Positions 2,971-30,334 of a DNA stretch of 64,000 nt are shown piece by piece. Within the stretch, counting starts at the first letter, position 1, and each line of letters opens with the position of its first letter. The notes beneath the pieces were generated by a model that ran no database searches, was not told where the DNA came from, and worked only from the letters and a program-made list of their open reading frames with translations. The position numbers and the translations under genes were made by a program. Origin of the DNA: Candidatus Phyllobacterium onerii (GTDB lineage: Bacteria; Pseudomonadota; Alphaproteobacteria; Rhizobiales; Rhizobiaceae); contig NZ_JAQMHX010000002.1 of NCBI RefSeq assembly GCF_028331445.1, positions 186,001 through 250,000 on the forward strand, read 5' to 3'.

Positions 2971-3057
2971 GGCAAATGAGAATCCGATGGGTTCGTGTTC
3001 TCACGATCGTTTCGAATGCACTGCGCGGGTCAAACCGCAAAACAGGGGGTTTTGACC

Positions 3058-4269
3058 ATGATGCGGCGTTTCGAAGATGCCCGGATCTTGATGTATAGCC
3101 ACGACACCTTCGGCCTTGGCCATTTGCGGCGGTGCAGGACCATTGCCCATTCGCTGGTCGAGGACTACCGCGGGCTCAATATCCTGATTATATCCGGCGC
3201 AACGATCGCCGGCGCATTCGACTATCGCGCCCGCGTTGATTTCGTGAAAGTGCCGAGCGTGATCAAGCTTCGCAATGGCGAATACACCTCGCTTGCCCGC
3301 CACATCGATCTGCATGAAACGCTGAAGATGCGCCAGTCGATCATCCGGCATACGGCCGAGACCTTTCAACCCGATATTTTTATCGTCGACAAGGAACCGA
3401 TGGGGCTGAAGGGCGAAGTGGAGGAAACCCTCGCCTATCTTAAATCTCGCGGCACGACACTCGTGCTGGGCCTGCGTGAGGTCATGGACGCGCCGCATCT
3501 GCTCGAGGCCGAGTGGAAGAACAACAATGTGATGCGGAAGATCGATCAGTTGTACGACACGGTCTGGGTCTATGGCCCGCCGGATTTTTACGATCCACTC
3601 GTCGATCTGGATGTGCCGGTCACCCTGCGCGACAAGATGAAATTTGTCGGTTTTCTGCAACGCAGCCTGTCGAACGACAACACCCCGACCCATGTTCCCG
3701 AGGGCGACTATATTTTGGTGACAACGGGCGGCGGCGGCGACGGGGCCGACCTCGTGCATAACGTCATCCACGCCTATCAGCAGGATCCGACCCTCCAGCA
3801 CAAGGCATTCATCGTGCTCGGCCCGTATATGCCGGCAAAGCAGCGGGCAAAACTGGTCAGGAAGGGGGGCAAAATTCCCTATATCCAGGTCATCGAGTTC
3901 GATAATCGCATGGAGGAACTGATCGCGGGCGCGAAGGCCGTGGTGGCCATGGGCGGCTACAACACCTACTGCGAAATTCTGTCTTTCGACAAGCCGGCAC
4001 TGATCGTGCCCCGCGTCCTGCCACGCGAAGAGCAACTGATCCGCGCCACACGCGCCGCCGAACTTGGTCTCATCGAAATGCTGCTGCCAGAGGAAGCCGA
4101 GGACCCCTTGCGCTTTGCACAAGTGCTCAAGCGCCTGCCGGACCGTCCCCCGCCATCACAAACCGGCAAGGGTGAAGGCATGCGGCTGGAGGGTCTCGTG
4201 CATATTTCCGAGATCGTCGGCGACTGGCTGGACGAACGCGAACAACCATTGCCCGCAGTCGCGGAATAA
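3058..4269 (+). CDS. Predicted glycosyltransferase, MurG-like (GT28 C-terminal fold)
   Basis: About 403 residues from the ATG at 3058. I chose this start because an AGGGGG ribosome site lies 8-9 bases upstream; a longer GTG-initiated frame from 2995 is possible but less likely. The N-terminus has the Rossmann-like opening of this family (R-I-L-M-Y-S-H-D-T-F-G-L-G-H-L-R-R). The C-terminal half has a nucleotide-sugar site like MurG/GT28 (T-T-G-G-G-G-D-G near residue 222; A-M-G-G-Y-N-T-Y-C-E near 299). I would place it in the uncharacterised COG4671 'predicted glycosyl transferase' group. It is the first of three consecutive glycosyltransferases, and a second member of the same group lies two genes on. 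Donor and acceptor are unknown. Confidence 0.8.
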   Translation: MMRRFEDARILMYSHDTFGLGHLRRCRTIAHSLVEDYRGLNILIISGATIAGAFDYRARVDFVKVPSVIKLRNGEYTSLARHIDLHETLKMRQSIIRHTAETFQPDIFIVDKEPMGLKGEVEETLAYLKSRGTTLVLGLREVMDAPHLLEAEWKNNNVMRKIDQLYDTVWVYGPPDFYDPLVDLDVPVTLRDKMKFVGFLQRSLSNDNTPTHVPEGDYILVTTGGGGDGADLVHNVIHAYQQDPTLQHKAFIVLGPYMPAKQRAKLVRKGGKIPYIQVIEFDNRMEELIAGAKAVVAMGGYNTYCEILSFDKPALIVPRVLPREEQLIRATRAAELGLIEMLLPEEAEDPLRFAQVLKRLPDRPPPSQTGKGEGMRLEGLVHISEIVGDWLDEREQPLPAVAE

Positions 4270-4279
4270 GAGAATAAAC

Positions 4280-5524
4280 TTGTCAGTACGCCGCAAGACA
4301 TTGGTGATTCTGAAGGGCTATCCGCGCCTTTCGGAGACATTCATCGCACAGGAACTGCTCGGACTGGAGCGGGCAGGCTTCGACCTGACGCTGATCTCCA
4401 TGCGCAAGCCGACGGACAGGAAACGTCACCCGATCCATGATGAGATCAAGGCGCGTGTCGTCTATCTGCCCGAATATCTTCACGAAGAACCAATCCGAGT
4501 CTTTCGTGCTCTCATGGCAGCGCGGAAAAACCCCAATTTCAAGCCACTTCTCCGGCGATTCTGGAAAGACCTGCGTCGCGATATTTCGCGCAACCGCATC
4601 CGTCGTCTCGGCCAGGCACTTGTCCTTGCCCATGAATGGCCGGACGCAGGCGAATGGCTGCATGCCCATTTTATTCATACGCCGGCTTCCGTCGCGCGCT
4701 ATGCCAGCATCATGACTGATGTGCCCTGGACCTGTTCGGCCCATGCCAAAGACATATGGACCTCTCCCGACTGGGAACTGATCGAGAAACTCGGCGCGGC
4801 GCGCTGGAGCGTCACCTGCACGCGCGCGGGCTTCGAACACATGCGCGGGCTGACAAATCGAAAGGAACAGGTGCATCTGAGTTATCATGGTCTTGATCTT
4901 GCCCGCTTCGGATATTTCTCTGGCGTCCGTCCCAGCCGCGACGGTGCGGACAGAACGGATCCCGTGCAGATATTGAGCGTCGGCCGTGCCGTGCCGAAGA
5001 AGGGCTACGACATCCTTTTGCAAGCACTGGCGCAGCTGCCTGCCCGTCTGCACTGGAGGTTCGTGCATATTGGCGGCGGCGATGAACTGGCGCGGTTAAA
5101 ACCCCTTGCCGACAAGCTCGGCATAGCCGACCGCATCAGCTGGAAAGGCGCGCTTGCGCAGGAGGATGTCCTTGGCCACTATCGCAGCGCCGATATATTT
5201 GCCCTCGCGTGCCGGGTTGCGGCAGATGGAGACCGCGACGGCTTACCGAATGTCCTTTTTGAGGCTTCCAGTCAAAACCTTGTCTGCATCTCAACGAATA
5301 TTTCCGGCATACCCGAGCTTCTGACCGGCGGAGAAAACGGTTTCGTCGTCCCTCCGGAAGATCCCCGGCTGCTGGCGGTTGCACTTGAACGCGCAATCCG
5401 CGAACCCGACCTTCGATACCGCTTGGGCAAGGCCGCCGAGAAACGGGTACGCGAACACTTCGACCATACTGCGAGCATCCGCCAATTGACCCGCCTTTTT
5501 GAGAGCGAATGGCAAAAACCATGA
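4280..5524 (+). CDS. Glycosyltransferase family 4
   Basis: I start this gene at the TTG at 4280, ten bases after the preceding stop. The frame is open further upstream only because it overlaps the previous gene. The product is about 414 residues. Its N-terminal domain begins V-I-L-K-G-Y-P-R-L-S-E-T-F-I, typical of GT4 enzymes of exopolysaccharide and colanic-acid type (WcaL-like). The C-terminal domain has S-V-G-R-A-V-P-K-K-G-Y (near residue 235) and the retaining-enzyme E-x7-E region F-E-A-S-S-Q-N...G-I-P-E (near 333-348). The stop overlaps the next gene's start, implying coupled translation. It probably transfers a sugar from a nucleotide donor in the cytoplasm. Confidence 0.88.
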   Translation: MSVRRKTLVILKGYPRLSETFIAQELLGLERAGFDLTLISMRKPTDRKRHPIHDEIKARVVYLPEYLHEEPIRVFRALMAARKNPNFKPLLRRFWKDLRRDISRNRIRRLGQALVLAHEWPDAGEWLHAHFIHTPASVARYASIMTDVPWTCSAHAKDIWTSPDWELIEKLGAARWSVTCTRAGFEHMRGLTNRKEQVHLSYHGLDLARFGYFSGVRPSRDGADRTDPVQILSVGRAVPKKGYDILLQALAQLPARLHWRFVHIGGGDELARLKPLADKLGIADRISWKGALAQEDVLGHYRSADIFALACRVAADGDRDGLPNVLFEASSQNLVCISTNISGIPELLTGGENGFVVPPEDPRLLAVALERAIREPDLRYRLGKAAEKRVREHFDHTASIRQLTRLFESEWQKP

Positions 5525-6651
5525 GCGAACCGCGCGTCCTTTTCTACGTCCAGCATCTTCTTGGCATAGGTCATCTCGCCCGCGCCAGCCGCGTAGCCGC
5601 GGCGCTCGCCGCTGACAAGTTCGATGTCACGGTGGTAACGGGTGGATCGAAGGTTTCGGGTTTTCCGGGACCCGATGTCAAATCTGTCGCATTGCCCACA
5701 GTGCTTGCGGGCAATGCCGGATTTTTAGGTCTGGCAGATGAGTTTGGTAATGCGGTTGACGATGAATTTCTGGCGCACCGCCGCGATCTCCTGCTCCAGG
5801 CGTTTCACCAAATCAACCCATCTATGGTCATCATCGAAGCGTTCCCTTTTGGACGCAGGCAGATGCGATTCGAACTTTTGCCATTGCTGGATGCCATGAA
5901 GGCAATGTCGCCGCGGCCGAAGCTTCTGAGTTCCGTCCGTGATATCCTGCAGGAGCGCACGAAGCCCGGGCGTGATGAAGAGACGGTTCGCATCATCAAG
6001 GCACAGTTCGACCATATCCTGGTGCATGGCGACCCGTCATTTGCAACGCTTGCCGATACGTTTCCCTTGGCAAAGGAGATCGCCGACAAGATTATCTATA
6101 CCGGTCTGGTTGCAGGTCCTGACCCGGCCGAACCATCGGAAGTCTTTGATGTCGTTGTGTCTGCCGGTGGCGGCGCCGTGGGGCTCGATCTGATCCGCTC
6201 AAGTCTGGAAGTGGCAAGGCAATCGGCCTTCCGCGGATCCTGGTGCCTGATCACCGGACCCAATCTGCCGGAACGCGATTTCAATGCCTTGTCGGCACAG
6301 GCACCCGGCAATGTGCGCGTCGTCCGTTTCCGCCAGGATTTTCCATCATTGCTCAAAGGAGCCGAGCTTTCAATTTCGCAGGCAGGATACAACACGGTGT
6401 GCGATATTCTGCGCGCGCAGTGCCGTTCCATCCTTGTCCCTTTCGCGGCCGGTGGCGAAACGGAACAGAGTGTACGGGCCGCACGGCTGGACACCCTCGG
6501 CCTCGCCATCGCCTTGCCCGAAAACAGCCTCAACGCCGATATTCTCGGCAATGCCCTTGCGGCCGCCCTGGCGCAGCCAAAGCCATCATCGCATATGCTT
6601 GACCTCGGTGGCGCCGAGCGCACAGCTGCGGTGTTGCGACATCTCCTCTAG
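5509..6651 (+). CDS. Predicted glycosyltransferase, MurG-like (second copy of the group)
   Basis: 380 residues from ATG 5509; an ATG at 5521 forms an ATGA overlap with the previous stop and is equally plausible. It belongs to the same group as the gene at 3058. It has the Y-V-Q-H-L-L-G-I-G-H-L-A-R opening, where the other copy has S-H-D-T-F-G-L-G-H-L-R-R. It also has the glycine-rich V-S-A-G-G-G-A-V-G donor-site loop near residue 220 and the S-Q-A-G-Y-N-T-V-C-D motif near 290. Overall similarity to the other copy is low outside the motifs, so this is an old paralogue and not a recent duplicate. The operon order, group member / GT4 / group member, suggests stepwise assembly of one glycan. Confidence 0.8.
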   Translation: MAKTMSEPRVLFYVQHLLGIGHLARASRVAAALAADKFDVTVVTGGSKVSGFPGPDVKSVALPTVLAGNAGFLGLADEFGNAVDDEFLAHRRDLLLQAFHQINPSMVIIEAFPFGRRQMRFELLPLLDAMKAMSPRPKLLSSVRDILQERTKPGRDEETVRIIKAQFDHILVHGDPSFATLADTFPLAKEIADKIIYTGLVAGPDPAEPSEVFDVVVSAGGGAVGLDLIRSSLEVARQSAFRGSWCLITGPNLPERDFNALSAQAPGNVRVVRFRQDFPSLLKGAELSISQAGYNTVCDILRAQCRSILVPFAAGGETEQSVRAARLDTLGLAIALPENSLNADILGNALAAALAQPKPSSHMLDLGGAERTAAVLRHLL

Positions 6652-6854: not shown

Positions 6855-9569
6855 ATGGAAACAAGTCTAACACGCTATATCTGGTCGAACACGCGGCTGC
6901 AGCAGATATGGATTCTGTTCGTCGTAGCTGTCTCGATGATTCCGTATTTCATGTCTTTCGACCTGCCAAAACAGATCGTCAACGGTCCCATCCAGGGTAA
7001 CGGTTTCGAGACCCCGGGCGCGACGCGCACCTTCATGCATCTCGAATATGACGTCCCCGTTTTCGGCAAGGTGGTGTTTTTCGACGGCCTTGAACTTACG
7101 CGTTTCCAGACATTGATGGCGTTGAGCCTGGTTTTCCTGCTGCTCGTCATCATCAACGGTTTGTTCAAGCTTTATATCAACACCTACAAGGGCCGTCTCG
7201 GCGAGCGCATGTTGCGACGAATCCGCTTCGAGTTGATTGACCGCGTGCTGCGTTTTCCGCCGGCGCAATTCAAGCGGGTAAAATCCGCGGAAATTGCGAC
7301 GATGATCAAGGACGAAGTCGAACCCATGGGCGGCTTCACCGGGGACGCCTTCGTTCAGCCGGCATTGCTAGGCGGACAAGCTATCACGGCCCTCGTCTTC
7401 ATCATCATGCAGAATTTCTGGCTTGGTATGATTGCCGCAGGCATTGTCGCGGTCCAGGGCGTGGTCATTCCCCGCATGCGCAAACGGTTGCTTGAACTCG
7501 GACGCCAACGTCAGCTCACGGCGCGCGAACTGTCTGGCCGTGTGGGTGAGATCGTCGATGGCATTGGTACCATTCACGGTAATGACACATCGAACTTCGA
7601 ACGGGCCGACATCGCGTCGCGGTTGGGCCTGATCTTCTCGATACGGTACGATCTTTATCAATGGAAGTTCCTGGTCAAATTCATCAACAATTTCCTCGCA
7701 CAGGTCACTCCGTTTCTATTCTATTCGATCGGTGGCTTTCTGGCGTTGCAGGGAAGACTCGATATCGGCCAGCTCGTTGCCGTCATCAATGCCTACAAGG
7801 ACCTGCCGGGGCCGTTGAAAGAGCTCATCGATTGGGACCAGGCCCGTCAGGATGTCCAGGTCAAGTACAACCAGGTGGTAGAACAGTTCAACGTCGACAT
7901 GCTCGTTGATCCAAGAATCCAGGCTCTGGCGCCCGATCCCGTCAACCGCCTTGAGCATTCGCTGCACGCGGTCAACCTGACACTTTCCGACGACAGCGGT
8001 GCGCCCTTGCTCAGACATGTCACGCTGGAGATCAAACCGGGCGAGACTGCCGCCATCGTTGGCAACAGCGGAAGCGGCGCCGAGGCCCTTGCCGAAGCCT
8101 TCGCACGCCTTATCTGGCCGGAGCAGGGTCGCATCACCATCGATGGCAAAGACATCCTCGAACTGCCAGAATCAGTAACCGGCCGCCGCATCGCCTATGC
8201 GGCATCCGATACCTACTTCTTCCACGGAACCTTGCGCGATAATCTGCTTTATGGCCTCAAGCATGCACCCCTGACCAAGGTCGAGTATGAAGGAGCAAAA
8301 GCTGCGAAGAACAAATGGAACATCAACGAAGCGCGCCGCGCCGGCAATCCCGAACTCGACGTGAACAGCGACTGGGTCGATTACGTCTCCGCGGGCGTGA
8401 CAGGGCCCGACGATCTGTTCAAGGTGGTGCGTCCGGTACTCGATGCCGTTCTGATTTCCCAGGACATTCTCGATATGGCGCTGCGTTCTAATGTCGACAT
8501 CAAGACACACGCTGATTTGACCGATCGCATTGTCGAATTGCGTCAGGCGCTGCGCAAACGATTGAAGAAGGAAGATCTCGACGATCTTGTCGTTCCGTTC
8601 AAGCTGGATGAATATAACCCTCAGGCCACCGTTGGTGAAAATCTGCTGTTCGGCAGCATGAGACGTCCGATGATGACGAACCGCAAACTGGCCGCACATC
8701 CCTATTTCCGCTCGGTGTTGCGTGAGAACGACCTTTACATCGATCTCTACAATATGGGTCTGGAGATCGCGGCCAATGCCGTCGAGCTCTTCGAGGATCT
8801 GCCGCCGGATCATCCGTTCTTCCAGCAGCTGACCTTCATGACCGCCGATGACATCCCGGCCTATCAGGTGTTGCTGCAAAAATTGCAGGGCCGCGGTATC
8901 GACGCGGCGTCGGCAGACGAACGAACAAGCATTATCCGCCTGAGCTTCTCCTACATCGAGCCAAGGCATCGCTTTGGTCTTTTGAACAGCCAGCTCATGG
9001 CCAAGATCGTCGATGCGCGCGCACGTTTCCACCAGAATATGCCGGACGATCTCAAGGCCGTCATTGAACGCTATGATCCTGAACGTTTTATCTCAACGGC
9101 CACGCTTCTCGATAATGTCCTTTTCGGCAGGATCGGCTTCACCCAGGCCGATGGTTCGGATCGCCTACGCACCATTTTGCGCGACCTGTTCGACCGTCTC
9201 GGACTGTTCGAAAGCGTCCTTTCGATTGGCATGGATTTCGATGTCGGATCCGGCGGCAAGCGATTGACCAATGTGCAGCGACAGAAGCTCAATGTTGCCA
9301 GAGCCCTGCTCAAGCGTGCTGACTACGTGATATTCAATCGTCCACTGCCCGCGCTTGATCAACGCGTGCAAGACCACATCACACACAACATCATGGAGGA
9401 CCTGCACGAAGAGGGCCACGCGCCTGCGATCATCTGGGTTCTGTCAAACACTGCACTTGCCAATCTGTTCGATCGCGTGATTGTATTCGACAAGGGAACA
9501 CTGGTCGAAGATGGAACACACGCGACTCTCCTTGAGAAAAACGGTATATTCAAGGAGCTGGTGTCATAA
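6855..9569 (+). CDS. ABC-exporter-like protein with a degenerate, expanded nucleotide-binding domain
   Basis: 904 residues, against about 580-620 for a normal half-exporter. Residues 1-330 form a type IV exporter membrane domain; the ATPase-like region begins near 370. Every catalytic motif is altered. Walker A at 403-410 reads GNSGSGAE, with no Lys or Ser/Thr. The Q-loop Gln is Ser. The signature is LTNVQ (804-808). Walker B is VIFNRPLPALD (Asn-Arg in place of Asp-Glu), and the switch His is missing near 864. An insertion of about 300 residues separates the Q-loop from the signature. It contains two further copies of the decapeptide that follows the Q-loop: GTLRDNLLYG at 458, ATVGENLLFG at 591 and ATLLDNVLFG at 749. 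It probably cannot hydrolyse ATP. A cyclic-nucleotide-binding gene follows after 88 bases. Confidence 0.85.
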   Translation: METSLTRYIWSNTRLQQIWILFVVAVSMIPYFMSFDLPKQIVNGPIQGNGFETPGATRTFMHLEYDVPVFGKVVFFDGLELTRFQTLMALSLVFLLLVIINGLFKLYINTYKGRLGERMLRRIRFELIDRVLRFPPAQFKRVKSAEIATMIKDEVEPMGGFTGDAFVQPALLGGQAITALVFIIMQNFWLGMIAAGIVAVQGVVIPRMRKRLLELGRQRQLTARELSGRVGEIVDGIGTIHGNDTSNFERADIASRLGLIFSIRYDLYQWKFLVKFINNFLAQVTPFLFYSIGGFLALQGRLDIGQLVAVINAYKDLPGPLKELIDWDQARQDVQVKYNQVVEQFNVDMLVDPRIQALAPDPVNRLEHSLHAVNLTLSDDSGAPLLRHVTLEIKPGETAAIVGNSGSGAEALAEAFARLIWPEQGRITIDGKDILELPESVTGRRIAYAASDTYFFHGTLRDNLLYGLKHAPLTKVEYEGAKAAKNKWNINEARRAGNPELDVNSDWVDYVSAGVTGPDDLFKVVRPVLDAVLISQDILDMALRSNVDIKTHADLTDRIVELRQALRKRLKKEDLDDLVVPFKLDEYNPQATVGENLLFGSMRRPMMTNRKLAAHPYFRSVLRENDLYIDLYNMGLEIAANAVELFEDLPPDHPFFQQLTFMTADDIPAYQVLLQKLQGRGIDAASADERTSIIRLSFSYIEPRHRFGLLNSQLMAKIVDARARFHQNMPDDLKAVIERYDPERFISTATLLDNVLFGRIGFTQADGSDRLRTILRDLFDRLGLFESVLSIGMDFDVGSGGKRLTNVQRQKLNVARALLKRADYVIFNRPLPALDQRVQDHITHNIMEDLHEEGHAPAIIWVLSNTALANLFDRVIVFDKGTLVEDGTHATLLEKNGIFKELVS

Positions 9570-11991: not shown

Positions 11992-12143
11992 AAAGCTTAA
12001 AATCCAAATCGCTATCGCTTACATATGATCTGACGCAGATTTTTATTGCGCCGCTGCTAAATTAATCGAAATCCAAGCCTCGCATAAGGATTGCAGTTTG
12101 GATACGATGCCCTGAAAAAGGGGAATTGGGTGTAAAGAGCATA

Positions 12144-12974
12144 ATGAACGACGAAGTGTTTCGGGTGAAATTCTGGGGAACGCGGGGAAGCGTCTCCGTA
12201 TCGGGTCCCGATTTCAAAAGGTATGGCGGCAATACCGCATGTATCGAAGTTCAATGCGGCAAGCACCGGATGATCTTCGACGCCGGTTCCGGCATAAGGC
12301 AGGCGGGTGATGCTTTGGCACTGGAAGGCGTTGACCACCTCGACATCTTCTATACCCATTGTCATTACGACCATATCATTGGCCTCCCCTACTTCATGCC
12401 GCTTTACAATCCGATGATGAATGTGCGGCTGTGGTCCGGTCATCTGGCCGGGATCATGACGACGCGTGAAATGGTCAAGCAGTTCATGCGCCCGCCGTGG
12501 TTTCCTGTCGAGCCCGAAATCTGCAAGGCCAGTCTCGCTTTTCGCGATTTTCGTTCCGGCGACGTGCTGACACCATTTGACGGGGTCACGATCCGCACCG
12601 GCAGCCTTAATCATCCGGGCGGTTGCATCGGCTACCGCGTTGAATTTGCCGGCCGCGTCCTGGCGTTGATCTACGATACCGAGCATGAAGCCGGCAAACT
12701 TGACCCGGTGGTTCTGACGCTGATCAAAGACGCCGATCTCGTCGTCTATGACTGCACCTACACAGAAGACGAGATGCCGCGGCGTTTCGGCTATGGCCAT
12801 TCGACGTGGCAGCATGGCGCCCTCTTGGCGCAGGCAGCCAGGATCGGCAGACTGGCGCTGTTTCATCACGCGCCGGATCGCACGGATGACGAACTCGACG
12901 AATTCGAGCGACTGGCGAAAGAACGCTTTGCCGGCGCCTTTGCCGCGCGGGATTTTCAGGTGATCGATCTTTAG
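12144..12974 (+). CDS. Metallo-beta-lactamase-fold hydrolase
   Basis: About 276 residues from ATG 12144, which has an AAAGAG site a few bases upstream. A TTG 18 bases earlier is in frame but has its purine stretch too close. The protein has the metal-binding H-x-H-x-D-H motif (T-H-C-H-Y-D-H, near residues 72-78), a following histidine in S-L-N-H-P-G-G, an aspartate in Y-D-T-E-H, and a C-terminal F-H-H-A-P. The opening F-W-G-T-R-G-S is typical of the phosphodiesterase-like branch (RNase Z/PhnP relatives), not true beta-lactamases. It lies between the phosphoesterase and the cyclase, so a nucleotide phosphodiesterase role is possible but unproven. It overlaps the convergent deacetylase gene by 4 bases. 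Confidence 0.87.
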   Translation: MNDEVFRVKFWGTRGSVSVSGPDFKRYGGNTACIEVQCGKHRMIFDAGSGIRQAGDALALEGVDHLDIFYTHCHYDHIIGLPYFMPLYNPMMNVRLWSGHLAGIMTTREMVKQFMRPPWFPVEPEICKASLAFRDFRSGDVLTPFDGVTIRTGSLNHPGGCIGYRVEFAGRVLALIYDTEHEAGKLDPVVLTLIKDADLVVYDCTYTEDEMPRRFGYGHSTWQHGALLAQAARIGRLALFHHAPDRTDDELDEFERLAKERFAGAFAARDFQVIDL

Positions 12975-13723
12975 AGCAATTCCCGCAGCGAAACCCAGCG
13001 ACCAGCCGGCGTTGCCGCCACCACTGCGAACAATCTCCGCAAAAACTCCCAGGCGGATTCATCATGCACAAGATGGTGCGTCAGGATGCCGACAGGCTCA
13101 TCGTGGCTCCTGAAGCGCAGCCGCAACTCCCTGACGATCGCTTCAACCAATTGCCCATGGTCCCTGCAGCCTCGCGTTCCGTGCCAGTCCATCAGATCAA
13201 CATGGGCGTTGATGACCGGAAGGACAGCCGTGAACGTCTCGTTTGGCCGACCGAAAACCGATAGTGCCTTGAAATCGAGATTTGCCAATTCCTTCAGGAG
13301 CAGCGGATCGATCCGGTTCCATGGCGGCACCAACACCGGTACGAAGCGGGCGGGAAACAGGCTTTCAAGCAGTCTAAACCCTTCACCCAGTTCCGCCGAC
13401 ATCACAGAAAGCGCTCGATGCGGGCCGAGCTCCTGTTTTTTCTCGTTTGCCGCTGCGTGATTTGCGTGCGACCAGCCATGCACCGCGACAGTCACACCGA
13501 CTTCGTGCGCCAATCGTCGGGCAAGCTGCTCTTGCACATAGGCAGGGACTACGGCGAGCGTCAGCGGGACCTGGTACTCCTCGCGCAACACCAGAAGCCG
13601 TTCCAGCGCAGCGGTCGGCGCGACCGCGTCATCGTCGCGCAGCCAAAATCGGGCAATGCGATTGACTTTTGTCCAGCGCGCGAGCTCCTCTCGCAATGGC
13701 TGCCATGCGGCTTCATCCATCAT
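12971..13723 (-). CDS. Polysaccharide-deacetylase-like protein
   Basis: About 250 residues starting at the ATG-ATG overlapping the stop of the upstream glycosyltransferase gene; a longer frame from 13768 would run inside that gene. The NodB-type fold is suggested by F-W-L-R-D-D-D (metal Asp, near residue 27), V-H-G-W-S-H (the H-x3-H metal pair, near 82-86), and a P-P-W-N-R block (near 133). A late L-T-H-H-L-V-H follows. Such enzymes remove N- or O-acetyl groups from glycans. There is no signal peptide, so it may act on a cytoplasmic glycan intermediate. Coupling to the GT4 gene supports a shared pathway. Confidence 0.75.
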   Translation of the reverse strand: MMDEAAWQPLREELARWTKVNRIARFWLRDDDAVAPTAALERLLVLREEYQVPLTLAVVPAYVQEQLARRLAHEVGVTVAVHGWSHANHAAANEKKQELGPHRALSVMSAELGEGFRLLESLFPARFVPVLVPPWNRIDPLLLKELANLDFKALSVFGRPNETFTAVLPVINAHVDLMDWHGTRGCRDHGQLVEAIVRELRLRFRSHDEPVGILTHHLVHDESAWEFLRRLFAVVAATPAGRWVSLRELL

Positions 13724-14807
13724 GCACCATATAGTCCCGCAACAGCTGGTCGAGCCGCTTTGACGCAATCTCGAGCGATCGCTCTTCCATTACAAAACGT
13801 CGTCCCGCCCGTCCCATGGAAAGGCGGCGATCCTCATTGTCGATCATCTGCACAATGGCATCGGCAAAGGCGCTTATATCTCCAGCCGGCGTCAAGGCAC
13901 CGGTCACGGCGTCCTTGACCACCTCGGGCACCCCCGCGGTCTTTTGTGCCACAACCGGCAATCCCGCCGCCTGCGCTTCCAGATAGGCAATGCCGTAGGC
14001 TTCGCCCGTCCCCGGCCAGACAAAGGTGCCACCACGATAAAGCAAATCCACAACCTCCCCGGCCCGTTTTTCGCCCAGCCATTCGATGCGTTCGGCGTCA
14101 AACGCCGCAAACATCGCCTTCACTGCCACGCGCTCCGGTCCATCGCCTATAACGCTCAATTTCCAGGGCTTCTCCCCGAGCAAGGCCAGTGCCTCGGCGA
14201 GCATACGATAGCTTTCGAGCTTGTCGCCCGCCCGCATCATGGCGATCGTCACCAGCCGGTGCGGGTCATTCGCTGCGGGTTCGGCACGAAACGCCGATGC
14301 ATCGATAAAGGGCTGCAGCCGCGCCAGCCGAGCTTCCGGAATATGTGCGGCCAGTCCGATCGCGTCGCGCTTGGTCAAACAGATGTTGACTGCCGCTTGG
14401 CGCACTGAATCCACCACCACGGACTGCAGCTCGGCCCAGCCGCCGTCATCTCGCCGCTTCGAATAGGACGCTTCAGCGGTGACATAGGCAATACCCAGCG
14501 CAGCGGCGAGCGGCGGGCCGATCAGGTCAGGCGCTTTATAGTAAGGATGATAGCAGAACCATAGATCAGGCTTTCCCTCGCGCCGCCATTGCCGCGACAA
14601 CCGCTCGATCTCCTGTTTTGCCAGTTCTGCAATGCGTTCGCGTCCGGCTGCTTGCGGCGTCGCCGTAAAGCTGCGCAACTGCGATATCACGTCGACATCG
14701 TAACCCGCCAATTCAAGTGCGGCCACAAGCAATCTCGCCATCTGCCGATCGCCGGATGGCACCGGATGACTGGGTGATTTCAGCGGGGCATAGAAGGCGA
14801 TCTGCAT
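13713..14807 (-). CDS. Glycosyltransferase family 4
   Basis: About 364 residues from the internal ATG (M-Q-I-A-F-Y-A-P-L); the frame extends six codons further upstream. The opening I-A-F-Y-A-P-L-K-S-P-x-H-P-x-P-S-G-D-R is a variant of the N-terminal nucleotide-fold start. The C-terminal domain has V-I-G-D-G-P-E near residue 200 and the GT4 block Y-G-I-A-Y-L-E-A...G-V-P-E near 263-284. It is unlike the GT4 at 4280. Translation is coupled to the deacetylase gene through an ATGATGGATGA overlap, so the two products probably work on the same glycan, possibly de-N-acetylation after glycosyl transfer. Confidence 0.87.
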   Translation of the reverse strand: MQIAFYAPLKSPSHPVPSGDRQMARLLVAALELAGYDVDVISQLRSFTATPQAAGRERIAELAKQEIERLSRQWRREGKPDLWFCYHPYYKAPDLIGPPLAAALGIAYVTAEASYSKRRDDGGWAELQSVVVDSVRQAAVNICLTKRDAIGLAAHIPEARLARLQPFIDASAFRAEPAANDPHRLVTIAMMRAGDKLESYRMLAEALALLGEKPWKLSVIGDGPERVAVKAMFAAFDAERIEWLGEKRAGEVVDLLYRGGTFVWPGTGEAYGIAYLEAQAAGLPVVAQKTAGVPEVVKDAVTGALTPAGDISAFADAIVQMIDNEDRRLSMGRAGRRFVMEERSLEIASKRLDQLLRDYMVHDG

Positions 14808-14971
14808 TGTCTCTTTGTGCTTCAAACGACGTATAGGAACAAGCTTTCAAATGTTCCGCCAATAATTGCAAGCGCGGCTTCATCTCGCCATTTTTGCGGC
14901 GGCATTGATCTTCTCGCCAAATCACCATTCGTCGCTTAAATTGATTCGGCTAGAACATAATCCGGGTATTC

Positions 14972-16708
14972 ATGACATCAATCGACACAGCGCCCCTTTT
15001 GTCCGAGCGATCCCTGCGCAGGGCACGATTGATGTCGGGACTGATCCTTTTGGTCTTCGTGACATTGCATCTTGCCAATCACGCACTGAACCTGATCTCT
15101 CTGGATGCTGCGGAAAAAGGCCGGCTGTGGTTCACCGCCCTCTGGCGCAATCCGGTCGGCACCGTCCTGCTTTATGGCTCGGTTCTCGTTCACATCGCAC
15201 TTGTCATGCGTTCACTCTATCGGCGCCGCACCCTCGTCATGCCATTTCGGGAAGCGCTGCAGATTGTTCTCGGCCTTCTTATCCCGCTGTTGATCATTGA
15301 ACATGTCGTTGCAACACGCATCAGCTCGCAAATCATGGGTACGCCGGACGTCTATGCGTTTGTCATCCGCTCGCTATGGATCAACGCACCGATGAACGGT
15401 TTGCGCCAATCGATTGCCCTCGTCGTGGTCTGGACGCATGGCTGTATAGGAGTTCATTTCTGGCTGCGCTATCGGCCGTGGTACGACAAGGTCGCCCCGT
15501 TCCTTTTGACCTTTGCCATTCTCTTGCCGGTGCTGGCCCTGCTTGGATTTGCCAGTACGGGGCGCCTACTCGCCAGCGAGCCACCGCAATCCAGCAGCGG
15601 CTACGGCCCGGCGGGGGCTAGCACCGGTTACGGCGGTTCGAAGAGCGATGACGCCGCAATGTCGTTTGCAACGACCGCAGTGCGCAAGGAACGGGTGCAG
15701 ATGACGAAATACGCGCTCTATGGCGGATTTGCCGGCACATTGCTGACTGTTTTTGCCATGCGCGCACGGCGCAGCCGGCGCGAACGGACAGACCAGATCG
15801 AAATCCGTTATCCGGAGGGGCAAATCGTCAACGTTCCGCGCGGCTTCAGTGTGCTTGAAGCGAGCCGGCTCGGGGGGATCCCGCATTATGCGGTCTGCGG
15901 TGGCAAGGGCCGCTGCTCGACCTGCCGTGTCCAGGTCGTTGAGGGTGCGGCATCGCTGCCGAAACCTGAATCAACCGAACTGACAACGCTCCGCCGCATC
16001 AACGCAGATCCCGGCGTGCGCCTCGCCTGCCAGTTGCGGCCGCTACACGACATCAGCGTCGTTCCGCTGCTTGTGCCAACGACGGAAGGCGCGCTTCCCG
16101 TCGGCAGCCAGCAAATCAATCCCGGACGCGAACAGGAAATCGTCATTCTCTTTTGCGATATCCGCAGCTTCACCATGCTGACCGAGGCCCAGCTTCCCTA
16201 CGATATCGTCTTCCTGCTCAATCGTTATTTTGCCATTGTCGGTCAGGCGGTCGAGCACGCCGGGGGACGTCTCGACAAATTCATCGGCGATGGTGCCATG
16301 GCACTCTTCGGCCTGAAAGGTTCTCCCGAAGACGCCTGCCGCAACGCGCTCAAGGCAGCCGCCAGGATCGTCAGCGAAATAGAACGGCTCAATGATGAAT
16401 TGTCCGCCGAACTTTCCATGCCGCTTCGTGTTGCCATCGGCATCCACAGCGGTCCGGCCATTGTCGGTGCGATGGGTTATGGCAATGTGAAGAACCTCAC
16501 CGCCATCGGCGATACGGTCAATGTTGCCAGCCGGCTGGAAACCATCGCCAAGGAGCTCGACTCCACGCTGGTCGTGTCGGAACCAACCATCCAGTTGGCC
16601 GGTTCCGACACCGCCAATCTCGAAAGCCAGGAAATCTCCATTCGCGGCCGGGCAGAACCACTGCGTGTCTATATCATTCACCAGGAATTGACTGCGAGGT
16701 TTGTCTGA
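14972..16708 (+). CDS. Membrane adenylyl cyclase with [2Fe-2S] ferredoxin domain (class III)
   Basis: 578 residues in three parts. Residues 20-265 hold about six membrane helices with histidines in or near them (H33, H37, H74, H111 and a pair near 157-162), resembling a succinate-dehydrogenase-type diheme cytochrome b anchor. Residues 275-365 are a plant-type ferredoxin domain with C-G-G-K-G-R-C-S-T-C and a fourth Cys in L-A-C-Q-L. From about 385 a class III cyclase domain has both metal Asp motifs (F-C-D-I-R-S and I-G-D-G), the adenine-binding Lys (D-K-F-I-G-D) and Thr in I-G-D-T-V-N, as in class IIIb adenylyl cyclases. The layout recalls the quinone-responsive CyaC of Sinorhizobium meliloti. 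It probably makes cAMP in response to membrane redox state. Confidence 0.92.
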   Translation: MTSIDTAPLLSERSLRRARLMSGLILLVFVTLHLANHALNLISLDAAEKGRLWFTALWRNPVGTVLLYGSVLVHIALVMRSLYRRRTLVMPFREALQIVLGLLIPLLIIEHVVATRISSQIMGTPDVYAFVIRSLWINAPMNGLRQSIALVVVWTHGCIGVHFWLRYRPWYDKVAPFLLTFAILLPVLALLGFASTGRLLASEPPQSSSGYGPAGASTGYGGSKSDDAAMSFATTAVRKERVQMTKYALYGGFAGTLLTVFAMRARRSRRERTDQIEIRYPEGQIVNVPRGFSVLEASRLGGIPHYAVCGGKGRCSTCRVQVVEGAASLPKPESTELTTLRRINADPGVRLACQLRPLHDISVVPLLVPTTEGALPVGSQQINPGREQEIVILFCDIRSFTMLTEAQLPYDIVFLLNRYFAIVGQAVEHAGGRLDKFIGDGAMALFGLKGSPEDACRNALKAAARIVSEIERLNDELSAELSMPLRVAIGIHSGPAIVGAMGYGNVKNLTAIGDTVNVASRLETIAKELDSTLVVSEPTIQLAGSDTANLESQEISIRGRAEPLRVYIIHQELTARFV

Positions 16709-28927: not shown

Positions 28928-30334
28928 ATGCAGGTGCGGGATCTGATCAGTAAATCGTGGTTATGCCTTGCACGGCCAGGTGCCGCGATAGGCCACGGGG
29001 GTCATTCCCACTTCCCGGCGGAAGGAATTGGAAAAATGGCTCGAACTGGAGAAGCCACATGAGAGCGCGATATCGGTGACTGGCATCGAGGAATGGCGCA
29101 GAAAGTCCTTTGCCCGCTCGATCCTGCGCCGGATGATGAAAGCATAGGGCGGACAGCCAAGCGTTTGCCTGAACGCCCGGCAAAAGTGCGGAACGCTCAG
29201 GCCGGCAAGCTCGGCCAGTTGCAACAGCGACAAGTCCGCCGTGAGGTCATCATCAATTCTCTGAATCGGGGCGAGCCCGCCTTTGCGGACAGCGGCCGGA
29301 TATCTTTGCCTGCGCATCAGCTGGGCGAAGATTGTGGCTGTATAGCTCTCCACCAGCATGGCGCTGAGAGGATTGCGGTCACGGATCTCTGCACCTATCC
29401 CGCGCGCTGCGTTGAGGATGATGGGATCCTCGAAGCCGAGATCCGGTGAGAGCGACGGCAGCGCCTCGAGCTGCCCCCCGGCAAGCAGCTCGGCCACATG
29501 TGCCGGGTTGACCAGGATTGCCAGATAGGCCGCCGTCGAGGCGCCGGCTTCCCAGCCCCGCCAGCTGCATCCGGCGGGAACAAACAGGATTGCGCCGGGT
29601 TTTCGGGGTGCAAACCCGGCGTTCCTGCCATCTATGAAGTATTGGCCACGCTCTGAGTTGCCCTGCACATTGAGAAGCACAACATGCCGGCTGGAGGTGA
29701 TCGCCGTCTCCTCCTTGGCAAGCCCGCTGCGCCGGACAAGATCGGCCTCGAGGCGATGCCATGACCTCTTGTCACGGGAAATTGTGCGGCAGTCACCGAC
29801 CTTGAAGGCGGGTTGCGGCCCGGAGATCGCCATGTTCATCCCCGATTCTCATCGGGTGCAGAACCTCTCCGCCCTGCCCCATATGTGTCCGGTGCCCCGC
29901 CGTACCCGTTTCTGTCTTCGGCAGCGGGCATGCCATGGCGTTCCCGTGCAGAGCGGTCAATTCCTCGCCTAAAGCGGCGATGAATGAGGATACGCGGCGG
30001 CGCGTGCGGGGAGGCAGCCGCATCACCCCTTCAATCAGCCGGCGCCCCTCGCTGCTTGCTATGAATGTGATCCGCTCGTCGACGGGAAGTGATGCCACCT
30101 CGCCTTCCGGCCTTGCATTGCCCGGCAGCCCTTCAAAGAAACGCCCGACGGGCACGCTGAGGAATGTCGCGATTTCAAACAGCATAGACGCACTGATACG
30201 GTTCTTGCCGTTCTCATATTTTTGCAGCTGCTGGGGACTTACCCGGATAGCGCGGGCGAGCGTAGCTTGCGTCACGTCGTATTGAAGGCGGACAACGACA
30301 ACCTGACGCCCGACATACAGATCAGCAGCATGTG
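28928..30334. repeat. Tandem duplication, copy 2 (AraC-XRE regulator pair)
   Basis: The second copy of 26634-28060. Scattered base changes, an 18-bp deletion in the AraC gene and a frameshift near the 3' end of the XRE gene distinguish it. The duplication is therefore not brand new, but most of the sequence remains identical. Confidence 0.93.
28961..29839 (-). CDS. AraC-family transcriptional regulator (copy 2)
   Basis: 292 residues, near-identical to the regulator at 26661. Differences are a short replaced stretch near residue 120-130 (A-G-G-Q-L-E-A), loss of six residues just before I-Q-R-I-D-D-D-L, and a different last residue block (W-P-C-K-A). Both helix-turn-helix motifs are intact, so it is probably functional. 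The lost segment lies in the linker between ligand and DNA-binding domains, which could change the response. It lies about 2.4 kb from the transporter operon and has no adjacent target on its own strand except copy 1's neighbourhood. Confidence 0.88.
   Translation of the reverse strand: MNMAISGPQPAFKVGDCRTISRDKRSWHRLEADLVRRSGLAKEETAITSSRHVVLLNVQGNSERGQYFIDGRNAGFAPRKPGAILFVPAGCSWRGWEAGASTAAYLAILVNPAHVAELLAGGQLEALPSLSPDLGFEDPIILNAARGIGAEIRDRNPLSAMLVESYTATIFAQLMRRQRYPAAVRKGGLAPIQRIDDDLTADLSLLQLAELAGLSVPHFCRAFRQTLGCPPYAFIIRRRIERAKDFLRHSSMPVTDIALSCGFSSSSHFSNSFRREVGMTPVAYRGTWPCKA

Follow-up and report, generated by a model that had tools for sequence, protein, structure and literature searches.

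An ABC-exporter-like membrane protein with a degenerate ATPase site and a cyclic-nucleotide-binding partner, mostly in surface-glycan loci of Alphaproteobacteria

Results

Organization of the locus and predicted fold

We analyzed a stretch of 64,000 nucleotides from Candidatus Phyllobacterium onerii (Rhizobiaceae; assembly GCF_028331445.1, contig NZ_JAQMHX010000002.1, positions 186,001 to 250,000 of the forward strand), which is called the window below. It encodes a protein resembling ATP-binding cassette (ABC) exporters, followed by a small protein with a cyclic-nucleotide monophosphate (cNMP)-binding domain, in a neighbourhood of glycan genes (Table 1). In the ABC protein an exporter transmembrane domain (TMD) and a nucleotide-binding domain (NBD) follow each other in a single chain, as in type-IV-fold ABC exporters. 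ABC_membrane (PF00664) covers residues 84–311 and ABC_tran (PF00005) residues 386–484, the first half of the NBD only, both above their cut-offs, while the second half (748–903) is matched by several exporter models. The 904-residue frame and the order of the Pfam matches bear out a preliminary description of this DNA, made without database searches, according to which reading frame, membrane domain and domain order at 6855–9569 are intact.

Table 1. Features of the locus, in window coordinates
Feature	Position	Strand	Basis
Three glycosyltransferase genes (GT28-like, GT4-like, GT28-like)	2995..6651	+	homologues at non-overlapping places near 79, 74 and 66 of 96 loci
ABC-exporter-like protein, putatively ATPase-dead, 904 amino acids (aa)	6855..9569	+	open reading frame (ORF), Pfam, model, structure matches
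Type-IV exporter-like TMD, residues 1–345	6855..7889	+	PF00664; TM287/288 and MsbA chain matches; lowest ratio of nonsynonymous to synonymous substitution rates (dN/dS) of the four parts
First half of NBD core, residues 366–471	7950..8267	+	partial PF00005 match, 386–484
Degenerate Walker A, GNSGSGAEA, residues 403–411	8061..8087	+	motif counts, conservation
Repeat copy 1 (Q-loop strand, GTLRDNLLYG at 458, next helices), residues 446–543	8190..8483	+	hhalign to copy 3, E 1.6e-6
NBD insertion, residues 472–745	8268..9089	+	Walker A–signature spacing; residues 475–766 modelled alone
Repeat copy 2, with ATVGENLLFG at 591, residues 553–637	8511..8765	+	hhalign to copy 3 region, E 3e-13 and 2.8e-14
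Repeat copy 3, with ATLLDNVLFG at 749, running into the signature helix, residues 712–794	8988..9236	+	hhalign
Degenerate signature, LTNVQ, residues 804–808	9264..9278	+	motif counts, conservation
Degenerate Walker B, Asn828-Arg829 for Asp-Glu	9324..9341	+	N828 in 44/44, R829 in 41/44 members of >58% identity
cNMP-binding partner, 154 aa	9658..10122	+	PF00027 sole Pfam match; no DNA-binding domain
Metallo-β-lactamase (MBL)-fold hydrolase (+), polysaccharide deacetylase (−), GT4 (−), class III cyclase with 2Fe-2S domain (+)	12126..16708	.	profile matches

An AlphaFold2 model of the monomer, built from 59 sequences, reached a mean predicted local distance difference test score (pLDDT) of 83.1 and a predicted template modelling score of 0.77, with pLDDT below 50 in two TMD stretches (165–181 and 315–322). 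Its nearest solved structures are exporters (TM287/288 and MsbA chains), and the modelled NBD (range 364–904) aligns with the ComA NBD (3vx4) over 239 of 239 residues (Z 29.7, root-mean-square deviation 2.0). The protein is therefore an exporter in its predicted fold, including a complete predicted NBD fold.

Loss of the canonical ATPase site

In the window protein, the altered motifs of Table 1 are accompanied by replacement of the Q-loop Gln (Ser 451) and of the switch His (Ser 864), and the A-loop aromatic residue is absent (Leu 377; Phe, Tyr or Trp in 27 of 161 members). These family counts refer to the 161 distinct sequences among 186 ORFs that pass a full-length rule, a set skewed to Rhizobiaceae in which one gene occurs twice (loci L187 and L197). 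The Walker A Lys is present in 81 members and the Ser/Thr after it in 12, with Glu or Asp there instead in 143. The Q-loop Gln is retained in 43, both signature glycines in three, the switch His in 15, the Walker B Asp in 19 (Asn in 131) and the catalytic Glu in 64. None of the members combines working Walker A, Walker B and signature motifs in a canonical site, and the most complete one, L065, keeps seven of ten canonical residues.

The preliminary description had held that every ATPase motif is lost. This stands for Walker A (GNSGSGAE, 403–410), the Q-loop, LTNVQ, Walker B and the switch His, and the losses recur in the homologues. At the level of single residues the wording was too strong: Walker A Gly 408 (156 of 161), signature Gln 808 (151) and D-loop Asp 835 (146) are kept. 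Intact Walker A and B motifs in homologues, which would have spoken against the same description, occur to a limited extent: GK[S/T] is found at the Walker A position in six of the 161 members, four of them also with the Walker B Asp-Glu, and LSGGQ in none. A substitute site did not emerge either, since no conserved P-loop lies within the NBD insert of the family members checked.

The 44 members more than 58% identical to the window protein share not only its Walker B replacements (Table 1) but also an acidic residue at position 410, present in all 44. Median dN/dS was lowest in the TMD (0.033), with 0.065 and 0.070 in the first and second NBD parts and 0.064 in the insert. These values come from the window protein and 12 members of 0.82–0.97 identity; pairs with dS outside 0.1–2 were dropped, leaving 54, 43, 36 and 45 of 78 pairs by domain, and mean dS exceeded 1, so that the ratios are approximate. 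Because the replaced residues are conserved near the window protein and dN/dS lies at about 0.03–0.07, we regard the motif loss as a fixed feature and not as decay. Every domain is thus under purifying selection, and relaxed selection, which would have spoken against the preliminary description, was not seen.

In a tree of 88 rows (below 80% identity, at least 820 aa, NBD motif columns removed, root not inferred), the acidic replacement of the Walker A Ser/Thr is found throughout. In a supported 26-row clade of this unrooted tree, which includes the window protein, the Walker A Lys is lost and the catalytic Glu is mostly Arg. We also considered a co-evolved charge swap: the Walker A Lys is combined with a basic residue 829 in none of 81 members, and 54 members without Lys/Arg at 409 have a basic 829. 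This candidate was rejected, as the pattern stems largely from a single change at the origin of one clade, and none of the four independent pairs on supported branches differs in both traits. An opposition between acidic 410 and Asp 828 is suggestive only (median p 0.125).

An enlarged NBD with a triplicated segment

Walker A and the signature are 401 residues apart in the window protein (family range 374–473, median 401). In three canonical exporters from its own genome this distance is 104, 104 and 109. The NBD therefore contains about 295 extra residues, in agreement with the initial estimate of about 300. The decapeptides at 458, 591 and 749 had been taken to indicate internal repetition of the helical subdomain, and profile–profile comparison by hhalign extends this similarity beyond the decapeptides: residues 545–590 match 700–748 (E 2.8e-14), 576–750 match 734–850 (E 3e-13), and 440–592 match 734–850 (E 1.6e-6). 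Comparisons with four other segments served as controls; none of the 24 reached an E value below 0.017, and none of seven in a separate run one below 0.006. Against canonical NBDs, the first part of copy 1 matches the Q-loop segment (E 2.3e-10), copy 3 (734–850) matches the segment from Q-loop to Walker B (E 1e-23), and copy 2 matches weakly (E 1.7e-4). The NBD therefore has three Q-loop/helical-subdomain entries, the third leading into the degenerate signature helix. Inclusion of the signature helix in the repeats was rejected; helices 559–572 and 712–727 are well placed, but their homology is not supported (E 0.005 and 0.03), and the repeat is therefore claimed just for the Q-loop/helical segment and the preceding helix.

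The region of the insert modelled alone (residues 475–766) reached a pLDDT of 89.8. A Foldseek search of the PDB with this model gave no match at E ≤ 0.001 (best 2.1), a missing match being no proof of a new fold. VIA-align gave Z scores up to 4.0, with the ABC proteins 6p6i, 6par, 3rlf and 6gjq at Z 2.4–3.0, the first three aligning over residues 110–253 of the insert model. These matches to a predicted structure agree weakly with a helical-subdomain copy.

A conserved cNMP-binding partner

The downstream protein scores 73.2 bits with PF00027 and, with the Gly-Glu and Arg of the cNMP site present, belongs to the cNMP-binding domains. We take these to be the nucleotide-contacting residues; the Arg and Gly are found in 108 of 108 partners and the Glu in 100. 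A cNMP homologue was present in all 96 loci of a first neighbourhood test. In a larger set of loci with a full-length family member, a cNMP gene was present in 107 of 107 with long flanks and in 79 of 84 with short flanks. Of the five loci without a match, two (L187, the gene of L197, and L188, the gene of L220) hold fusions truncated at the locus end; when these are counted in, the cNMP domain is adjacent or fused in 188 of 191 loci. Some loci carry the same gene twice, and the counts are therefore of loci, not of species. In 105 loci with a measured position, the cNMP gene lies on the same strand, 14–330 bp past the NBD match; this set is conditional on a cNMP match and is no measure of frequency.

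Moreover, six members are ABC–cNMP fusions with the cNMP domain at the C-terminus (L041, L197, L200, L201, L207 and L220). The Phyllobacterium genome itself contains 15 ABC_membrane matches and ten cNMP domains, and the window pair is the only one less than 25 kb apart (two of the other 14 ABC_membrane matches lie at contig starts). The adjacency to a cyclic-nucleotide-binding protein, to which the preliminary description had drawn attention, is thus a tie kept in the family.

Distribution of the family

The protein is the sole copy of its family in its own genome, where the next best match is a partial one with 26% identity. Relatives were found, own genome included in each count, in 34 of 59 genomes (E ≤ 1e-50), in 132 of 385 genomes and 88 of 277 genera of the Alphaproteobacteria (E ≤ 1e-40), and in 32 of 398 genomes of the phylum (E ≤ 1e-60). 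Among these 32, one genome is not alphaproteobacterial; the match there covers the TMD only, on a 3.2-kb contig. The closest named record is a Phyllobacterium zundukense plasmid (NZ_CP104972.1, 98%). A plasmid collection contained 262 records with the family gene, mostly of Rhizobium (144) and Sinorhizobium (80), and named loci include Kiloniella, Reyranella, Azospirillum, Mesorhizobium and Rhizobium. Alignment A2 of the family comprises 58 of 80 loci. No description of the family or of an ABC–cNMP fusion was found in the open-access literature searched.

Several variants were noted. In the Sinorhizobium meliloti 1021 pSymB record (L212:6724-9433) the match to the family gene is split over two frames, and in strain Rm41 it is a single open frame. 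The member at L206:6485-10504 has an N-terminal extension of about 450 residues with no Pfam match; a wrong start in GC-rich DNA is possible. A second group (L189–L193 and L198; about 863–949 aa) has the same insert and a degenerate NBD, with a TMD too diverged for the family profile. TMD-only relatives of about 320–425 aa, without an NBD, occur at L194, L195, L196, L208, L213, L214 and L215. Those of L194 and L196 lie within copper-resistance islands, both with a multicopper oxidase and L196 also with CopB and a heavy-metal P-type ATPase; those of L213 and L215 adjoin cation P-type ATPases, and L213 also a universal stress protein. No cNMP gene was found in seven scanned loci of TMD-only or diverged-TMD relatives, three long diverged-TMD loci being among those checked.

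The surface-glycan neighbourhood

Beyond the three upstream glycosyltransferases, the second GT4 gene of the window (minus strand) has homologues near 62 of the 96 loci, the deacetylase (PF01522, 25.1 bits) near 46, the MBL-fold hydrolase near 24 and the cyclase domain near 20. Counted by non-overlapping place, glycosyltransferases occupy at least three places in 69 of the 96 loci, one or two in 12 and none in 15. With cross-hits between paralogues, the four genes would be counted in 80, 74, 70 and 68 loci, and contig ends lower all such counts. The metallophosphoesterase gene adjoining the partner in the window recurs near just two of the 96. The MBL protein scores 40 bits with a cyclic-nucleotide phosphodiesterase model (cut-off 400) and 84 bits with a ribonuclease Z model, also below its cut-off.

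Outside the window, on its upstream side, the genome encodes another cyclase-domain protein, a polysaccharide lyase and a UDP-sugar dehydrogenase; the gene order is the same in P. zundukense. The S. meliloti 1021 locus maps to pSymB at about 842–844 kb. SMb20813, named the msbA homologue in PMC10945364, may be the S. meliloti member of the family. By number it lies near smb20804/05, which affect capsular polysaccharide according to PMC5539429. Elsewhere in the window, positions 30000–54000 have a G+C content of about 47–54%, against 55–59% to the left, suggesting an acquired region. A conserved 183-aa protein with no Pfam match is encoded in a Kiloniella-type glycan cluster (L101:1237-1785), with similar genes in 21 loci.

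Discussion

The interpretation that we favour, and that we hold at even confidence, is that the protein is a cyclic-nucleotide-controlled, ATPase-dead membrane protein of ABC-exporter fold, which in most loci forms part of a surface-glycan cluster. The preliminary description had pointed to a channel, scaffold or regulated flippase in place of a pump. This is partly supported: the conserved loss of the canonical site, the triplication and the tie to the cNMP protein are borne out, and a role as channel, scaffold or flippase is a proposal. The TMD keeps the exporter fold in the model and is under strong constraint, and the NBD keeps its predicted fold while presumably being unable to hydrolyze ATP by the canonical mechanism. 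The two extra Q-loop/helical-subdomain copies may form an enlarged cytoplasmic platform. The cNMP partner, as a separate protein or as the C-terminal domain of the fusions, would sense cyclic AMP (cAMP) or cyclic GMP (cGMP) from class III cyclases and act on this platform. In the mechanism that we hold most likely, ligand binding would alter the contact between partner and NBD, and the coupling helices would relay the change to the TMD. As a result, passage of a lipid or lipid-linked glycan could be opened or blocked, or the glycosyltransferases of the locus could be held at the membrane.

More tentatively, the exporter fold without ATP might serve as a cyclic-nucleotide-gated passage or flippase, in which the triplicated NBD docks the cNMP sensor and the second messenger takes over from ATP in switching the TMD; those members that lack the sensor keep more of the ATPase site. 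This proposal, which we consider possible but doubtful, touches on the three members that forbid calling the partner invariable. L065, L073 and L075 keep seven, six and five of the ten canonical residues as well as the switch His, while the other 158 members keep a median of three and a maximum of six. L073 and L075 adjoin a queuine tRNA-ribosyltransferase gene. The three would fit a replacement of ATP use by cNMP control, as a sample of three genes of which at least two belong to one clade (L065 and L073 cluster with a support of 98; L075 is not in the 88 rows).

A number of observations weigh against the favoured interpretation. The same three members are full-length, yet their available flanks contain no cNMP gene, no glycosyltransferases and no other genes of the window cluster (downstream search up to about 9 kb for L065 and about 1.7–2 kb for L073 and L075). 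No glycosyltransferase homologue was found at the 15 loci mentioned above, some of them for lack of flank. Four of the 161 rows, representing three genes (L186, L188 and L187/L197), retain GK[S/T] together with the Walker B Asp-Glu, and weak ATP binding or slow hydrolysis is conceivable in these. At least two of the three are ABC–cNMP fusions (L197 and L220), and the cNMP domain does not always accompany the fullest motif loss. A canonical exporter-like match (E<1e-40; flanks up to about 9 kb) occurs at one of the 96 loci. At L201, a locus not among the 96, a 609-aa exporter gene with ABC_membrane and ABC_tran (4177-6003) lies upstream of the ABC–cNMP fusion; a canonical partner encoded elsewhere is possible. 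The structure model represents the monomer alone, and parts of its TMD are weakly predicted. Finally, no ATP-binding, transport or cyclic-nucleotide experiments on the family were found in the open-access literature searched.

Some of these points bear on readings in which ATP is still used. Through a non-canonical site, or by ATP binding without hydrolysis, the protein could still be driven by ATP and act as a glycan or lipid exporter in the manner of MsbA, with the cNMP protein as no more than a modulator. The Walker A Lys in 81 members, the catalytic Glu position in 64, the six to seven of ten canonical residues in L065, L082 and L073, and the naming of SMb20813, possibly this gene, as the msbA homologue (PMC10945364) point in this direction. 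We nevertheless consider it improbable, if the most serious competitor: LSGGQ is absent from all 161 members, the MsbA model score is 191 against a cut-off of 602, and the window protein lacks the A-loop aromatic. Its clade moreover has Ala/Gly for the Lys, Glu for Ser/Thr and Asn-Arg for Asp-Glu, without the Q-loop Gln or the switch His. Alternatively, the protein might form heterodimers as the degenerate half, with catalysis left to a canonical exporter whose gene usually lies elsewhere. Exporters with degenerate sites form an established class (PMC7756269), and the exporter gene near the L201 family gene would suit such a pairing. A canonical exporter-like match lies alongside in just one of the 96 loci, with flanks of up to about 9 kb, however, the genome has a single family copy, and nearly every site element is altered, not those of one composite site, which makes this the less probable of the two.

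Other explanations dispense with transport altogether. The recurrence of at least three glycosyltransferase places near 69 of 96 loci, the enlarged helical platform and the lack of an evident energy source would suit a membrane scaffold or receptor for glycosyltransferases that moves nothing. On the other hand, the TMD is the most constrained part and TMD-only relatives exist, which points to a role for the membrane part as such, and three members have no glycosyltransferases nearby; we rank this reading as unlikely, slightly ahead of the heterodimer. A pseudogene-like remnant is largely refuted, and we give it hardly any weight. All canonical motifs are altered, and a few genomes carry copies in two pieces, in two frames or with stops, but dN/dS is far below 1 and the great majority of the listed matches have no internal stop.

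ABC proteins are treated as ATP machines, and those with altered sites usually retain one competent site. If the favoured interpretation is true, the family would be a test case for an exporter fold that is driven or gated without ATP, given its lack of a canonical site, its three helical-subdomain segments and its near-constant cNMP partner. In soil and symbiotic alphaproteobacteria, it would also link cAMP or cGMP directly, at the post-translational level, to the production of surface glycans.

With respect to known systems, the window protein has the TMD fold, the NBD fold and the domain order in common with type-IV-fold exporters such as MsbA, TM287/288 and PCAT1. The family differs from these in the missing canonical ATPase site, the additional 295 or so residues, the two extra helical-subdomain segments and the cNMP partner. 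The lipid A flippase MsbA is one candidate for a closer relationship, and its model TIGR02203 gives 191.2 bits against a cut-off of 602. In NHLM bacteriocin transport, as the model names indicate, exporter-like ABC genes are likewise tied to a cNMP protein, TIGR03896, and both window proteins match weakly. The scores nevertheless stay far below the cut-offs (TIGR03796, 164.3 of 853.3 bits; TIGR03896, 40.7 of 161.05), and the family lies mostly in a glycan context. Because the motifs of a working site are missing and neither the MsbA nor the NHLM cut-offs are reached, the protein is not filed as a working ABC exporter, as MsbA or under NHLM, even though it keeps the exporter fold. Selection has also kept altered Walker and signature residues in the degenerate-site proteins TAP, TM287/288, CFTR and SUR, in which at least one site of the pair stays competent; in contrast, no examined member of the window family has a canonical site. 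Cyclic-nucleotide-gated channels couple a cNMP domain to a membrane domain, as is proposed here, whereas the membrane domain of the window protein is of the ABC type and its gating is only a proposal.

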